A stretch of 35,911 bases of DNA from positions 1 through 35,911 of the forward strand of contig WHTI01000015.1 of the NCBI GenBank assembly GCA_009377815.1, written 5' to 3'. Shown one piece after another: positions 8,290 to 15,206 of the stretch. This stretch comes from Actinomycetota bacterium (GTDB lineage Bacteria > Actinomycetota > CADDZG01 > WHSQ01). How positions within the stretch are numbered: position 1 is the first letter of the stretch; each line of letters opens with the position of its first letter. The notes under the pieces are model-generated. The model had not been told where the DNA came from. It ran no database searches and worked only from the letters and a program-made list of their open reading frames with translations. The translations under genes were made by a program, and so were the position numbers.

Positions 8290-8709
8290 ATGGCCACGAT
8301 CGAAGAGGTTTATCGCAAGAAGAAGCCCAAGGCCTTCGCCGCCGACCGGAGCCCCTCGAAGGCCGAGGTGTGGTGGTGGTTCTTCATGAGGCTTTCGGGG
8401 ATCGTGTTGCTGTTCCTCGTCCTGATCCACCTCTACATCATGCATCTCGTCGACTCGGGCGTTGAGCGGGTCAACTTCGAGTTCGTTGCGGAACGCTGGG
8501 ACAACGTCGGATGGAAGACGTTCGACTGGGTGCTTCTGGTGCTCGCCCTCCTCCACGGCGTCAACGGTCTGCGGGTGATCATCAACGACTACGTCCACCG
8601 TCCCGGGGTGAGGACCACGGTCAAGGCCACGCTGTACACCGTGACCGCGATCCTGATGATCATGGGCACCGCGGTCATCATCACCTTCGATCCGGCGGTT
8701 GGTGGATGA
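8290..8709 (+). CDS. sdhD: Succinate dehydrogenase hydrophobic membrane anchor subunit (SdhD-like)
   Basis: [28 protein letters not shown]...[29 protein letters not shown]; immediately upstream of and overlapping sdhA. Confidence 0.88.
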
Positions 8710-10445
8710 GCGACAACGTTCATGTCTTCGACGCGGTCATCGTCGGAGCCGGTGGAGCCGGATTGAGGGCCGCACTCGAGGCGAGCAAGGGGTGCAAGAC
8801 CGCGGTCGTCTCGAAGATGTATCCGACGCGTTCGCACACCGGCGCCGCCCAGGGGGGCATGTGCGCGGCGCTCGCCAACGTCGAAGAGGACTCGTGGGAA
8901 TGGCACGCGTTCGACACCGTGAAAGGCGGCGACTTCCTCGCCGACCAGGACGCCGTCGATGTGATGTGCAAGGACGCGGTCGAGTCCGTGCTCGAGCTCG
9001 AACGCATGGGACTGCCCTTCAACCGCACGCCCGAGGGCAAGATCGACCAGCGCCGGTTCGGGGGCCACACCCGCAACCACGGTGAGGCTGCGGTCAAACG
9101 GGCCTGCTACGCGGCCGACCGCACCGGGCACATGATCCTGCAAACGCTGTTCCAGCAGTGCAACAAGCAGGGCGTCGAGTTCTACAACGAGTTCTTCGTC
9201 TTAGATCTCATCATCCAGGGCGGTGTCTGCGGCGGGATCATCGCCTACGAGATCGCCACCGGTGAGGTTCACACCTTCCGTGCCAAGTCGGTCATGTTCG
9301 CGACCGGTGGCTACGGAAAGATGTTCAAGATCACTTCGAACGCCCACACCCTCACGGGTGACGGGCCCGGCGTCGTCTACCGCAAGGGCCTGCCGCTCGA
9401 GGACATGGAGTTCTTCCAGTTCCATCCCACAGGTCTGTATCGTCTCGGCATCCTTCTGTCGGAGGCAGCTCGTGGTGAGGGCGGCATCCTCCGCAACGGC
9501 GACGGCGAGCGCTTCATGGAGCGCTACGCGCCGACCATCAAGGACCTGGCGCCACGCGACATGGTGTCGAGGGCCGAGTTCTTCGAGATCAAGGAAGGAC
9601 GGGGGGCCGGGCCCAACAAGGATTATGTGCTGCTCGACCTCACCGGGATCGACCCCGAGGTCGTCGAGGCGAAGCTCCCCGACATCACAGAGTTCGCTCG
9701 CACCTACCTCGACGTCGACCCCTTGAAGGAGCCGGTGCCGACGGTCCCGACCGCGCACTACGCGATGGGCGGCATCCCGACCAACGTCAACGCCGAGGTC
9801 CTGCACAGCGCGCACGGAGAGGTCGTGCCCGGCTTCTACTCCGCCGGCGAGTGCGCCTGCGTGTCGGTCCATGGTGCCAACCGGCTAGGGACCAACTCGC
9901 TCCTCGACATCGTGGTGTTCGGTCGGCGGGGCGGGCTCAACATGGCCGAGTACGCCAACAACAACAAGCTCATCGACGTCCCCGAGGACGTCGCCAAGTC
10001 GTCCGAGGAGTGGCTCCGTTCGATCACCGAAGGCGAATCGACCGAGCCGATCGCCGCGATCCGCAAGGATCTCCAAGAGGAGATGTGGGACAAGGCATCG
10101 GTGTCCCGCACCGACGAAGGACTGGGCCAGGCACTCGGCACCCTCGATAGCCTCAAGGAGCGCTACGGCAAGGCCCGGGTAAAGGACCGGAGCAAGGTCT
10201 TCAACACCGAACTCGTCGAGCACATGGAGCTGGGCTTCATGATCGACATCGCCGAGGCACTCGTCATCTCGGCCAAGGCCCGGACCGAGTCGCGCGGCGG
10301 TCACTACCGTGAGGATCACCAGATGCGGGAAGACGAGCACTGGTTGAAGCACACTTTCATCAACAAGACCGCCGACGGGGATACGCGGCTGGCCTATAAG
10401 CCGGTCACGATGGGGCGCTACGAACCAGTAGAAAGGAAATACTAG
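8706..10445 (+). CDS. sdhA: Succinate dehydrogenase flavoprotein subunit
   Basis: [48 protein letters not shown]...[31 protein letters not shown]...[10 protein letters not shown]...[23 protein letters not shown] overlap with sdhD. Confidence 0.97.
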
Positions 10446-10608
10446 TGCACCTCCGCGGAACTAGTCGTTGCACCAGAGCGCCCCTGCATCGACGATGGCT
10501 GCGTTGCTCGTCGCTCACGTACTGTCCAGTACTTTCGACTCCTCGCGCCTTGCCCTCGCCGCGCAGTGGCGCTCTGGACGTCGACGCTACTTCCGCGGAG
10601 GTGCACTG
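10443..10608. repeat. Palindromic intercistronic element, copy 1 (166 bp), between sdhA and sdhB
   Basis: 17-bp perfect terminal inverted repeat AGTGCACCTCCGCGGAA (10444-10460) / TTCCGCGGAGGTGCACT (10591-10607); inner IR CCAGAGCGCC (10473-10482) / GGCGCTCTGG (10568-10577); apical GTACT-gtcc-AGTAC (10519-10532). It shares its termini and 38/40 internal bp with copy 2. Confidence 0.9.
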
Positions 10609-11313
10609 ATGCCCGAAGTGACGCTCAAGGTGCTCCGGTTCAATCCGGAGACCGACGCGGAGAGCCACTTCGAGGAGTACCGGATCGACGCCAACCCAAT
10701 GGATCGCCTGCTCGACCTCCTACACGAGATCAAGTGGTACCAGGACGCATCGCTCGCCGTCAGACGCTCGTGCGGACACGGGATCTGCGGGTCCGATGCG
10801 GTCGTCGTCAACGGAGTGAACCGTCTTGCGTGCAAGATCCTCGTTAAGGACCTTCCCTCTGAGATCACCGTCGAGCCGATCCGCGGCATGCCGGTGATCA
10901 GGGACCTCGTCGTGGACATGGAGCCGTTCTTCGCCGGCTACCGAGCGGTCAAGCCGTGGCTGATCACCGACGACGAGCACGAGCCGACCAGGGAGCGCAT
11001 CCAGAGCCCCGAGGAGCGGGAGCGCTTCGACGACACGACCAAGTGCATCCTCTGCGCCGCCTGCACGACTTCTTGCCCGATCTTCTGGTCGGACGAGGAG
11101 TACGTGGGCCCGGCCGCCATCGTCAACGCCCACCGCTTCATCTTCGACTCGAGAGACACCGGTGCGGCCGAGCGCCTCCAGATCCTGTCGTCCTCGAACG
11201 GCGCATTCAAATGCCGGACCGCCTTCAACTGCACCGAAGCCTGCCCCCGCGGCATCAAAGTGACGATGGCGATCCAAGAGGTCAAACAAGCCGCCCTCTA
11301 CCGCTCCGTCTAG
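10609..11313 (+). CDS. sdhB: Succinate dehydrogenase iron-sulfur subunit
   Basis: MPEVTLKVLRFNPETDAESHFEEYRID...RRSCGHGICGSDAVVVNGVNRLACK...CILCAACTTSCPIFW...CRTAFNCTEACPRGIKV. The SD GGAGG comes from the repeat. The longer ORF start at 10468 lies inside the repeat. Confidence 0.96.
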   Translation: MPEVTLKVLRFNPETDAESHFEEYRIDANPMDRLLDLLHEIKWYQDASLAVRRSCGHGICGSDAVVVNGVNRLACKILVKDLPSEITVEPIRGMPVIRDLVVDMEPFFAGYRAVKPWLITDDEHEPTRERIQSPEERERFDDTTKCILCAACTTSCPIFWSDEEYVGPAAIVNAHRFIFDSRDTGAAERLQILSSSNGAFKCRTAFNCTEACPRGIKVTMAIQEVKQAALYRSV

Positions 11314-11338
11314 CCCCAACCCTCTTTTCTTCCATACC

Positions 11339-11357
11339 AGTCGTCTATGGGACGACT
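11339..11357. terminator. Candidate bidirectional hairpin terminator between convergent sdhB and yccF
   Basis: AGTCGTC-tatgg-GACGACT, 7-bp perfect stem, 26-44 nt past the sdhB stop. No strong U-tract. Confidence 0.4.
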
Positions 11358-11372
11358 CCCGTGGAAATCTGA

Positions 11373-11777
11373 CTACCCAACGACGACGGATCTCCCCGCA
11401 GTCATGTCCCGGGGAATGACCTCTTTCCCGAATGGCACCAGGCTGACCAAAGCCAGTTTCATGTGCACCACTGCGAACGGGATCCCGATGATGGTGATGG
11501 TCAGTATCAGAGCCGAGACGAGGTGGCCAAGCGCAAGCCACCAGCCGGCCAGGATGAACCAGAGAACGTTGCCTACGACCGATCCCGTTCCCGCCTCTGG
11601 ACGCCGGACGAGAGCGCTCGTGAAGGGGAACAGGGTGAAAGCAGCAAGCTTGAAGGCCTGGAGCCCGAAGGGGATGGTCACGATCAACAAACACATGATC
11701 AACCCCGCGACGACGTAACCGAGGGCCATGAAGATCCCACCGAATAGAAGCCAGACGATGTTGCCGAGAAAGCGCAC
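11373..11777 (-). CDS. YccF domain-containing inner membrane protein
   Basis: FLGNIVWLLFGGIFMALGYVVAGLIMCLLIVTIPFGLQAFKLAAFTLFPF...NVLWFILAGWWLALGHLVSALILTITIIGIPFAVVHMKLALVSLVPFGKEV. SD AGGAGG, GTG start. Confidence 0.93.
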   Translation of the reverse strand: MRFLGNIVWLLFGGIFMALGYVVAGLIMCLLIVTIPFGLQAFKLAAFTLFPFTSALVRRPEAGTGSVVGNVLWFILAGWWLALGHLVSALILTITIIGIPFAVVHMKLALVSLVPFGKEVIPRDMTAGRSVVVG

Positions 11778-11898
11778 GCGGTCCTCCTGAGGACGATTGG
11801 GATCGGACTCAGTCTCTGCCTATGTCCCCTGGGAAACAAGGGCTCCCGACCGGCACCGCAAAGGGGCGGGCCCAAGTCCCGGCCCGCTTCCCATGGCT

Positions 11899-11910
11899 GA
11901 TTCGCGAATC
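11899..11910. promoter_or_regulatory. 12-bp perfect palindrome GATTCGCGAATC upstream of a candidate -10 (TAGCCT, 11923-11928)
   Basis: Perfect dyad 12 bp upstream of TAGCCT-N6-ATG of the YdcF-family gene. Confidence 0.35.
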
Positions 11911-11934
11911 CTGTGGGATGGGTAGCCTGAGTGG

Positions 11935-12528
11935 ATGAAACGTCTTCGCATTGCTGTTCTGGTCGCCGTTCTCCTCGTCGTCGGGTATCCGGCGTGGATC
12001 GGCGTGCAGGTCTGGAGCCAGTCGCGCCAGGACGAGCTCCACTCGGCCGATGCCATCGTGGTCCTCGGCGCGGCCCAGTACGACGGCGAGCCGTCACCGG
12101 TGTTCAAGGCCCGGCTGGATCAGGCGGCGTACCTCTACAACGAGGGTTTCTCGGCCACGGTCATCGTGACCGGGGGTAAGCAGCCCGGTGACCGGTTCAC
12201 CGAAGCGGGTGCGGGCGAGGCATACCTGGCGACGCAAGGGGTTCCGAGCGACGCGATCCTCGGAGAGGACGAGGGGAAAACGACGCTCGAGTCGCTCGAG
12301 AAGGTCCGTGAGATCGCCCACGCCAACGACATCAACTCGGTGCTCATGGTCTCGGACCCGATGCACTCCGAACGACTGAAGCGGATCGGTGGAGACCTGG
12401 GCTTCGAGGAGGTCTATGCGAGCCCCGCCTCATACGTGGACCTGAACCGCAGCCGCCTCACGAAGGCAAAGGAGTTGTTGCACGAGGTCGGCTCGATCAT
12501 CGTCTACCAGTTGATCGATCAATGGTGA
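11935..12528 (+). CDS. YdcF family (DUF218/ElyC/SanA-like) membrane protein
   Basis: SADAIVVLGAAQYDGEPSPVFKARLDQAAYLYNEGFSATVIVTGGKQPGDRFTEAGAGEAYLATQGVPSDAILGEDEGKTTLESLEKV..VLMVSDPMHSERLK. Confidence 0.92.
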   Translation: MKRLRIAVLVAVLLVVGYPAWIGVQVWSQSRQDELHSADAIVVLGAAQYDGEPSPVFKARLDQAAYLYNEGFSATVIVTGGKQPGDRFTEAGAGEAYLATQGVPSDAILGEDEGKTTLESLEKVREIAHANDINSVLMVSDPMHSERLKRIGGDLGFEEVYASPASYVDLNRSRLTKAKELLHEVGSIIVYQLIDQW

Positions 12529-13094
12529 TCGCGCGGTTGAGCGCGGAAGAGACCGCAAGGATCAGGGCCGAGCTCGTCAAGGTCTACCGAGAGGCGTGGT
12601 CGACCACCAAGTACGCGCTGACCCGTCACCAGATCCGCGATTTCGCATCGGTGTTCGACATGCACCTCGGTCGGGACGACTTCCGGGCGGTGACAGCGCG
12701 CGACGATCCCGACGGCCCCATGCTCGGGTTCGCGTACGGATACACGAGCGCTCCGGGCGGGTGGTGGCGGGAAACGGTGATCGATGGGCTCCCGAAGGAG
12801 GCGACCGAGGTGTGGTTCGCCGACAGCTACGAGTTCGTCGAGCTCGCCGTGATCGAATCCGCCCGGGGGCGCGGCCTGGGTGGCGCCCTCCACGACGCCC
12901 TCCTCGAGGGGATCGAACGCAAGACCTCGGTGCTCTCGACCCAGTGCGGCAACGCCGCCGCCCTGGCGCTCTACCGCGCCCGCGGCTGGACGACGATCTC
13001 GGGGGACTTCAGGTTTCCGAATCGCCCATATCCATACGCGGTGATGGGACTCGTCCTCAACGATAGGGGGCGGTTACGCTCATCACGTGAGTAA
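12522..13094 (+). CDS. GNAT family N-acetyltransferase
   Basis: ELAVIESARGRGLGGALHDALLEGIERKTSVLSTQCGNAAALALYRARGWTTISGDFRFP: acetyl-CoA-binding R/Q-x-x-G-x-G/A and C-terminal YxxxGW-like motif. Confidence 0.82.
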   Translation: MVIARLSAEETARIRAELVKVYREAWSTTKYALTRHQIRDFASVFDMHLGRDDFRAVTARDDPDGPMLGFAYGYTSAPGGWWRETVIDGLPKEATEVWFADSYEFVELAVIESARGRGLGGALHDALLEGIERKTSVLSTQCGNAAALALYRARGWTTISGDFRFPNRPYPYAVMGLVLNDRGRLRSSRE

Positions 13095-13656
13095 CCCCCT
13101 TGAGCCTCGCCGCTCGCGGCTTCCCTTCATCCTGGCTCTCGCGTTCGCGGGGATCGTGACCCTGGCCGTCTACCGGCTCACCGATGCCTTCGTCGTACAA
13201 CTGAGGAACAACAGTCCCCTATCCGATCCAGCGGCCGGATGGGCATACCGGCTGATCGTCGCCATCTCGGTCCTGCAGGCGCTCTATGCGGGATGGGCGA
13301 TCCTCAGGCCTGAGCGGGTGCGCCGAGCGATGGCCGAGGAAGAGACCGTGGCGCGGCTTCCCCGCTATGCGATCGCACGGTCGGTATGTAGGAACGCGGC
13401 GGGCATCGCGTCGCTCACGGTGATCTACGGCGTGGCGGTCTTTCTGTTAACGGGACTGCGCGGAGGCTTCCTCGTCTTCCCCCTCCTCGCGTTGCTCCAG
13501 ATCGCGTGGTACTTCCGGCAGGCCGGGGTGATCGCGGGGTGGCTCGCGTTCCAACAGGAACCGGCCCCCGAACATCCCGCACCACTCCCATGGTCCCGAG
13601 AGCCGGCCGACTACTGTCCCCCGCTCGCGAGGGGGCTCCGGCCGGAGGGCAACTAG
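13087..13656 (+). CDS. Hypothetical membrane protein (about four predicted TM segments)
   Basis: Hydrophobic segments FILALAFAGIVTLAVY, LIVAISVLQALYAGWAIL, IASLTVIYGVAVFLLTGL, FLVFPLLALLQIAWYF; overlaps the upstream GNAT end. Confidence 0.7.
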   Translation: MSNPLEPRRSRLPFILALAFAGIVTLAVYRLTDAFVVQLRNNSPLSDPAAGWAYRLIVAISVLQALYAGWAILRPERVRRAMAEEETVARLPRYAIARSVCRNAAGIASLTVIYGVAVFLLTGLRGGFLVFPLLALLQIAWYFRQAGVIAGWLAFQQEPAPEHPAPLPWSREPADYCPPLARGLRPEGN

Positions 13657-13750
13657 TGCACCTCCGCGTAAGCAGCCGAGCTCCTCGCGCCTTGCCCTCA
13701 CCGCGCCGTGGCGCTCTGGATATGGACGCCTGTCACGCGGAGGTGCACTA
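13654..13750. repeat. Palindromic intercistronic element, copy 2 (97 bp, internally deleted relative to copy 1)
   Basis: 16-bp perfect TIR TAGTGCACCTCCGCGT (13654-13669) / ACGCGGAGGTGCACTA (13735-13750). The 40-bp core CTCCTCGCGCCTTGCCCTCACCGCGCCGTGGCGCTCTGGA (13681-13720) matches 10539-10578 at 38/40. Confidence 0.9.
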
Positions 13751-13751
13751 A

Positions 13752-15206
13752 TTGGGAGGCATCGGTGGGTTCGCGCGGACCGCTCCCGACAAGACGGCGA
13801 TCATCGAAGGCGCACGGGCCACGACCTACGGACAACTCGAGTCGCGAGCGCGGGCGATCGCGGGGATGCTCCGGCGCGGTGGGCTGAAACGTGGAGATCG
13901 GATCGCGGTGCATTCCGGCAACCGCACCGAGGTCCTCGAGGTCGTCATCGCGGCCTTGCGCATCGGGGTCGTGGCGGTCCCGGTCAACTCGCTGCTAACC
14001 CAACCAGAGATCACTTACATCCTGGAAGACTCGGGAGCCCGGTGGCTGTTCACCGATCGAGCGGTCGATACCCCGCCGGGCGTCGAGCGAACGATGAGCT
14101 TCGGCGATGCGTTCGAACGGAGCCTGCACACTGCAGAACCGGCCGAGATCGCCGACTTCACCCTGGCCAAGCCGATGCTCTATACCTCCGGGACCACCGG
14201 TCTGCCCAAAGGGGTCTGGGTTCCGCCCCACACACCACCGGTCGCCGCGCGGATCTCCGAGGACTTCCAGAGGCTCTGGGGCATCACCGACGACGAAATC
14301 CACATCATCTGCTCGCCGCTGGCTCACTCGGCCCCGCTGCGTTACTCGACCCGAACGCTCGAAGCGGGTGGGACCGTCGTCGTCCAGAAGGCGTTCGATC
14401 CCGCCGAGACGCTGGCGGCGATCGAGATCTACTCGGTGACCTCGACCTTCATGGTTCCGACGCATCTGGAGCGGATCATCGACCTCGATCCGTCAACCAT
14501 TCGCCGTCACGACCTCTCGACCATGCGACTGCTGGCACATGCCGGCGCGCCGATCAGGGTCGAGACGAAGGAAGAAGTCATCAAGCTGTTCCCCGAAGAC
14601 TCGGTGTGGGAGTTCTACAGCGCAACCGAGGGCGCGGCCACACGGATCTCACCCGCAGAATGGCGGCGCAAGCCGGGAAGCGTGGGGAAACCCCACCGCG
14701 GGATCGAGATCATCATCCGTGACGAATGGGGTGAGGTGCTCGCACCCGAGAAGAGCGGCGAGATCTGGGTGCGCGACTCCGAGGCACCGCCGTACGAATA
14801 CTGGGGTGACTCGAAGAAGACCGCCCGCATGAGATGGGAGGGTGCGGTCACGTTCGGAGATCTCGGCCATCTCGATAGTGACGGCTACCTCTACGTTGTC
14901 GGGCGCGCACACGACACGATCATCTCGGGCGGGGTGAACGTCTATCCCCGCGAGGTCGAGGAGGTCCTGATCCAACACCCCGCGGTCCACGAGGTCGCGG
15001 TCTACGGAGCCGAGCATCCCGAGTGGGGCCAGGAGGTCCGGGCGATGGTCGTGAGGGCCGGCGAGCAACCGCTCGATCCGGAACTACTCCGCGGCTGGGC
15101 TCGCGAGCGACTAGCGGGGTTCAAGTGCCCGCGGCAGATCATCGTCGTCGATGCATTGCCCCGCACGCCAACCGGGAAGATCCTCCGCCGGGGGCCGGAG
15201 GACTAG
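13752..15206 (+). CDS. AMP-dependent synthetase/ligase (acyl-CoA synthetase-like)
   Basis: LYTSGTTGLPKGVW, WEFYSATEGAAT, YLYVVGRAHDTIISGGVNVYPREVEEVL, LPRTPTGKILRR: ANL superfamily motifs. TTG start, with SD from the repeat terminus. Confidence 0.92.
   Translation: MGGIGGFARTAPDKTAIIEGARATTYGQLESRARAIAGMLRRGGLKRGDRIAVHSGNRTEVLEVVIAALRIGVVAVPVNSLLTQPEITYILEDSGARWLFTDRAVDTPPGVERTMSFGDAFERSLHTAEPAEIADFTLAKPMLYTSGTTGLPKGVWVPPHTPPVAARISEDFQRLWGITDDEIHIICSPLAHSAPLRYSTRTLEAGGTVVVQKAFDPAETLAAIEIYSVTSTFMVPTHLERIIDLDPSTIRRHDLSTMRLLAHAGAPIRVETKEEVIKLFPEDSVWEFYSATEGAATRISPAEWRRKPGSVGKPHRGIEIIIRDEWGEVLAPEKSGEIWVRDSEAPPYEYWGDSKKTARMRWEGAVTFGDLGHLDSDGYLYVVGRAHDTIISGGVNVYPREVEEVLIQHPAVHEVAVYGAEHPEWGQEVRAMVVRAGEQPLDPELLRGWARERLAGFKCPRQIIVVDALPRTPTGKILRRGPED

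Follow-up and report, generated by a model that had tools for sequence, protein, structure and literature searches.

A probable IS630-mobilised MITE at operon junctions of uncultured Actinomycetota, with ends that may rebuild stop codons and supply Shine-Dalgarno sequences

A dispersed palindromic element, with inverted ends and encoding no transposase, recurs at many loci in the genomes of uncultured Actinomycetota, where it tends to lie between co-directional genes at the junction of a stop codon and a start codon. The explanation that we regard as highly probable is that it is a MITE moved by an IS630-type transposase, that it targets CTAG sites, that its ends rebuild the upstream stop codon and usually supply a Shine-Dalgarno (SD) sequence to the downstream gene, and that it is consequently tolerated in operons. 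On this explanation it would be a variant on the known IS630-associated MITEs, one able to settle in operons without obviously breaking them.

Two copies in one window, and their family

The window (the whole stretch of DNA that we analysed, 35,911 nucleotides long) contains two copies of the element (Table 1). For copy 2, the preliminary description had reported a perfect 16-bp terminal inverted repeat (TIR), a core with 38/40 identity to that of copy 1, an upstream TAG stop, and an SD in the right end before a TTG start codon, and all of these are present as described. Its reading of copy 2 as an internally deleted copy was also borne out: the sequence supports a derivative that has lost about 69 nt of its interior, and the 40-nt remnant of the core reads CTCCTCGCGCC...GCGCTCTGGA. 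Other strongly shortened copies, 33–63 bp long and parallel to copy 2, occur at four loci in genomes G011 and G015 (L105, L107, L109 and L114). As RNA, copy 1 has a predicted folding energy of −97.4 kcal/mol (z = −8.7 relative to shuffled sequence) and copy 2 of −51.5 kcal/mol (z = −4.8).

Table 1. Coordinates of the two element copies, their parts and the adjoining genes in the window.
Feature	Position	Strand	Remarks
sdhA, succinate dehydrogenase flavoprotein	8706–10445	+	Stop TAG 10443–10445 within copy 1; ORF open from 8511
Copy 1, full-length 166-bp element	10443–10608	.	sdhA/sdhB junction; right end CACTG, not CACTA
GGAGG of copy 1	10597–10601	+	7 nt before sdhB ATG 10609
sdhB, iron-sulfur subunit	10609–11313	+	
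Upstream gene, 189 aa	13087–13656	+	No Pfam match; stop TAG 13654–13656 = first three bases of copy 2
Copy 2, internally deleted 97-bp element	13654–13750	.	Both ends intact
Left TIR of copy 2	13654–13669	+	TAGTGCACCTCCGCGT; TA 13654–13655 plus the element's G = TAG stop of upstream gene
Core remnant of copy 2, 40 nt	13681–13720	+	Right half of apical hairpin; matches copy 1 at 38/40
Right TIR of copy 2	13735–13750	+	ACGCGGAGGTGCACTA, perfect reverse complement of TAGTGCACCTCCGCGT; contains GGAGG 13739–13743
GGAGGTG, Shine-Dalgarno-like	13739–13745	+	8 nt before TTG 13752; anti-SD duplex energy −13.2 kcal/mol
AMP-binding ligase gene	13752–15206	+	TTG start; PF00501, E = 3e-65

Neither junction carries the element in the sister species G001. 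There the proteins on either side finish and begin at matching codons, so at each junction neither of them is disrupted in the window. At the copy 2 junction, the orthologous upstream proteins end in RPEGN* versus RPESS* and the next genes begin TTG-GGA versus ATG-GGC, which shows that the stop and start assignments at copy 2 are correct; the sdhB gene of G001 is one codon shorter.

The genome from which the window comes, which is a MAG, has five copies, and the element is also present in ten of its relatives. The relatives from the same taxonomic family that carry it have 4–23 hits each, other members of the class and of the phylum match too, and a Euzebyales MAG has 29 hits, corresponding to at least 20 copies. 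By their named records, the hosts are uncultured Actinomycetota and the Euzebyales MAG. Because the family recurs at many loci, the pair of elements in the window is far above chance. A length of exactly 166 bp, from TAGTG to CACTA, is shared by most intact copies, and the proposal of a dispersed, non-autonomous, MITE-like family therefore gains support from the many copies, their near-constant length and their ends. These counts come from draft MAG contigs in modest numbers. No element copies were found in plasmids (searched with the element and the core) or in viral contigs and phages (searched with the core), and the core had one partial match to a plasmid record, from Collinsella. Searches with Rfam covariance models gave no match at the gathering score in five element-bearing loci, and in positions 10000–14500 of the window gave just two unrelated matches below threshold.

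Target site and relationship to IS630

The element is mostly flanked as C|TA...TA|G. Among the 59 copies with clear ends, 28 have exactly this C and G, and in the Euzebyales genome the C...G flanks are always present at clear ends, except in one diverged copy. To find empty sites, we rejoined the flanks of occupied sites with one TA and searched for the product in congeneric genomes. Several congeneric empty sites align without gaps at a single CTAG or TA (a single CTAG in the occupied/empty pairs L079/L264, L074/L265, L038/L284 and L030/L295), so insertion duplicates TA, although the right end of copy 1 in the window reads TG and the duplication is not visible there. Two relatives that appear empty (L291 and L272, corresponding to L036 and L067) keep short remnants resembling element ends, TGAGTTGCACTAG and TGGTGCTTCC, and these are possible footprints of excision or deletion.

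The TA duplication matches the mechanism of the IS630/Tc1-mariner group, and IS630 itself is described as preferring TA within 5'-CTAG-3' (Tenzen and Ohtsubo 1991, cited in PMC2170065). The preliminary description had envisaged an autonomous relative encoding a transposase, possibly of the REP-associated TnpA_REP type. A probable autonomous relative is present in G001, and it is of the IS630 type. This element is 1176 bp long with ends TAGTGCCGCCGCGCGGAAGT and (reverse-complemented) TAGTGCAATTGCGCGTAAAT, and it has TAGTGC-N5-CGCG-N-AA in common with the ends of the MITE; the two match at 15–17 of the 24 terminal nucleotides, compared to a null mean of 10.7. Since an IS630 element of a sister species shares this end motif and TA is duplicated, the element is most likely an IS630-mobilised MITE and not a REP element, and a G001-type IS630 is its probable mobilising partner. 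Absence of target duplication is a criterion for REP/BIME repeats, and here the target TA is duplicated.

A DDE_3 search of ten genomes found IS630-type transposases in four of them (G001, G011, G012 and G015), and these four have the most element copies (11–23 hits, compared to 3–6). From this correlation between copy number and transposase presence we infer that the element moves in trans by means of an IS630 transposase. The same search found none in the MAG that contains the window, where the transposase has been lost or is unassembled. Other IS630-type elements of these genomes (L162, L163, L165 and L167) also have TAGTG ends beside a C, and regeneration of TAG may be general for this IS group.

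Placement at stop and start codons

The first base of the element, next to the duplicated TA, is G, and TAG is therefore always formed. In 34 of the 59 copies with clear ends the adjoining stop codon is formed by the element end, and 50 of the 59 have co-directional genes on both sides. The idea that the two copies in the window follow a common junction logic thus needs one amendment, which is that the upstream stop is present but is regenerated by the first base of the element, not merely retained.

To evaluate this placement, we called genes on the MAG contigs with a custom-written gene finder, checked on the window, and compared occupied sites, with their flanks rejoined, to CTAG sites without an insertion, taken from 20 other stretches and scored with identical code (Table 2). 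In the window's own family and its class, exact stop codons are 1.8-fold commoner at occupied sites and start codons within 5 nt about 8-fold commoner (odds ratio 12–15), and occupied sites are depleted inside genes. The gene finder could have favoured starts that follow the SD of the element; rejoining the flanks and dropping the SD term from start calling removes this bias, and with the SD term dropped the contrasts are almost the same. Part of the enrichment set has targets other than CTAG; among CTAG-only copies, 15 of 27 are at stops and 7 of 27 at tight starts. The Euzebyales genome, as an independent set, adds about 10 exact stops.

Table 2. Placement of occupied sites compared to unoccupied CTAG sites.
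Position	Occupied	Unoccupied CTAG	P
Exact stop codon	31/52	48/144	0.0016
Start within 5 nt	18/52	6/144	~1e-7
Between co-directional genes	46/52	93/144	0.001
Inside genes	6/58	218/362	3e-13

Across the genome searches, then, the placement of the copies with respect to stop and start codons is far from random, as had been anticipated; neither random placement nor a lack of further copies was seen. The further suggestion, that cistron junctions are targeted, needs correcting: the pattern is largely due to a preference for CTAG together with the loss of insertions in genes. These two factors account for part of the junction pattern, and an excess of tight stop-start junctions remains, for which tolerance by selection is the likeliest cause.

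It is conceivable, though we think it somewhat improbable, that the pattern is purely a target-site effect, in which the element inserts at CTAG, the junctions follow from CTAG stops, insertions into genes are lost, and the SD is incidental. About a third of CTAG sites outside genes are stop codons; the frequency of exact stops in Euzebyales is close to this null; and the strength of the SD is not adapted to the side on which it lies. However, the excess of stops and, above all, of close starts over unoccupied CTAG sites is not what a pure target-site effect would give.

The SD itself was said to come from the right-hand end of the element. This is often so–the end opposite the stop frequently carries GGAGG or AGGAG–but some subfamilies have a weak SD or an end without one. 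At tight junctions the median duplex energy of the SD is −6.6 kcal/mol, compared to −5.7 kcal/mol for native leaders. The difference in SD strength between ends near to a start and ends far from one is not significant (P = 0.08), and we found no asymmetry between start-facing and stop-facing ends. Because the start-facing end is no stronger, the SD seems to be an intrinsic feature of the ends, one that makes insertions tolerable, and not a later adaptation.

We can therefore outline how an insertion would proceed under the IS630-MITE explanation. An IS630/Tc1-mariner-type transposase, acting in trans, would place the 166-bp fold-back element at the TA of a CTAG site, duplicating the TA; CTAG is scarce in coding DNA and frequent as a C-TAG stop. 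Where the target was a TAG or TAA stop, a stop would be rebuilt in either orientation, because the duplicated TA and the element's G make TAG, and the upstream protein would be the same as before. A start codon 0–5 nt downstream would now follow the element's other end, with its GGAGG, AGGAG or similar sequence at a proper spacing in most subfamilies; at such a tight junction the native SD would be displaced about 160 nt upstream and replaced by that of the element, which is presumably used to translate the downstream gene. Insertions at operon junctions would be tolerated because the stop is rebuilt and the displaced SD replaced, and so would accumulate, while insertions into genes or promoters would be lost.

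A rival explanation, which we think unlikely, is translational coupling: the SD would lie hidden in the long stem until termination of a ribosome at the TAG unfolds the left arm and exposes it, and translation of the downstream gene would then depend on that of the upstream gene. Folding models predict that the SD is buried in several perfect-stem copies (probability unpaired 0.00–0.05), and that a modelled terminating ribosome, represented as a block, lifts its exposure to about 0.2–0.3, whereas a ribosome further upstream does not. But the predicted effect is small and is absent in many copies, exceeding 0.3 in only 5 of 17, and the SD is not conserved at the start-facing side, so coupling through the hairpin is weakly supported by these models.

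The conserved core and comparison to known repeats

The best-conserved interior of the element is an imperfect hairpin, GCAAGGCGCGAGGAG-N-CGTAC-N-GTACG-N4-CGACGAGCAACGC, and its mismatched arms hardly vary among 49 full-length copies. Using a search pattern that covered only its left half and loop, we found matches in MAGs of Nevskia, Deltaproteobacteria, Omnitrophota, Acidobacteria, Bdellovibrio, Fibrobacter and Alphaproteobacteria. In most of these matches the right-half motif, which lay outside the pattern, follows with unchanged spacing and agrees at 12–13 of 13 positions (the chance level for at least 12 of 13 is about 5e-5); the exceptions are two matches that contain an additional base and a Fibrobacter copy that agrees at 10 of 13. 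The outer ends of the cross-phylum elements differ. Loci in other phyla with the GCAAGGCGCGAGGAG...CGACGAGCAACGC core are L189, L207, L208, L226, L228, L229, L232, L234, L236, L239 and L240, and MAG contamination is a possible source of single hits. Our literature search for the core sequence returned just unrelated papers that print one of the 13-mers. We tentatively suggest, without giving it better than a minority chance, that the core is a functional module of palindromic mobile elements in several phyla, moved by different transposases, and that in these Actinomycetota it has been joined to ends that rebuild stops and provide an SD, so as to form a mobile linker between cistrons.

Collinsella aerofaciens has another palindromic repeat, distinct from this element but related to it in the apical loop (NZ_OY725717.1, positions 664800–665006, locus L333, and five further places). 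It sits between co-directional genes, including amtB-glnK, hisF-hisI and cysS-rlmB, and at amtB it starts with the TAG stop of that gene.

Conservation of the mismatched core across phyla might instead point to a REP/BIME-like or regulatory RNA that host selection maintains for mRNA processing or stability, and not to a tolerated transposon. The long stable hairpin would fit this, as would the co-directional operon sites, such as sdhA-sdhB in the window or rpsL-rpsG in genome G023 (gene names read by eye from the translated ends), where the element occurs with GGGGAGGTGCACTAGTG. Yet the CTAG targets with TA duplication, the constant length and the congeneric empty sites indicate recent mobility, and there is no Rfam family, so we find this reading more doubtful still than coupling. 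An intrinsic terminator or chance palindrome can be dismissed in spite of the strong GC-rich stem, because no T-run follows the stem, a start codon comes at once, and the element is dispersed in many genomes.

The preferred reading, an IS630-mobilised MITE, places the element beside several known repeats. One of its closest parallels is RUP of Streptococcus pneumoniae, a 107-bp IS630-associated MITE with IS630-Spn1 as its proposed mobiliser. According to PMC2229807, RUP is likewise short and non-autonomous, inserts at TA, and has TIRs similar to the ends of an IS630 element. The present element differs in being a 166-bp near-complete palindrome with a conserved core, with CTAG targets at stops and an SD in its TIR; RUP is reported in that account without functional motifs. 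IS630 (from Shigella), ISY100 and the IS630/Tc1-mariner family share the TA duplication, and IS630 also the CTAG preference (as described in PMC2170065), but IS630 and ISY100 are autonomous whereas our element encodes no transposase. The ERIC/IRU repeats of enterobacteria are also MITE-like and co-transcribed with their neighbours, and a ribosome-dependent change of RNA conformation has been proposed for them (PMC2229807); we liken them by description, not by sequence, and what is reported for them is that RNase E degrades the upstream transcript, not that they provide a stop and an SD. In pneumococcus, some BOX repeats contribute the upstream gene's stop codon (as reported in PMC3049150), but they encode it within the repeat, while our element reconstitutes it exactly out of the target TA and its own G. 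Our literature search for MITEs with an SD or stop-codon function found no direct precedent among the papers it covered.

The sequence of a transposon's ends and its choice of target can thus render insertion into an operon nearly harmless: the stop is preserved by a CTAG target combined with a leading G, and the following gene is served by the SD that the inverted repeat carries. The element offers a clear and testable example of how transposon ends may be selected to coexist with genomes that are densely packed and translated. The core found across phyla raises a separate question, which is what fold-back elements need in order to spread.
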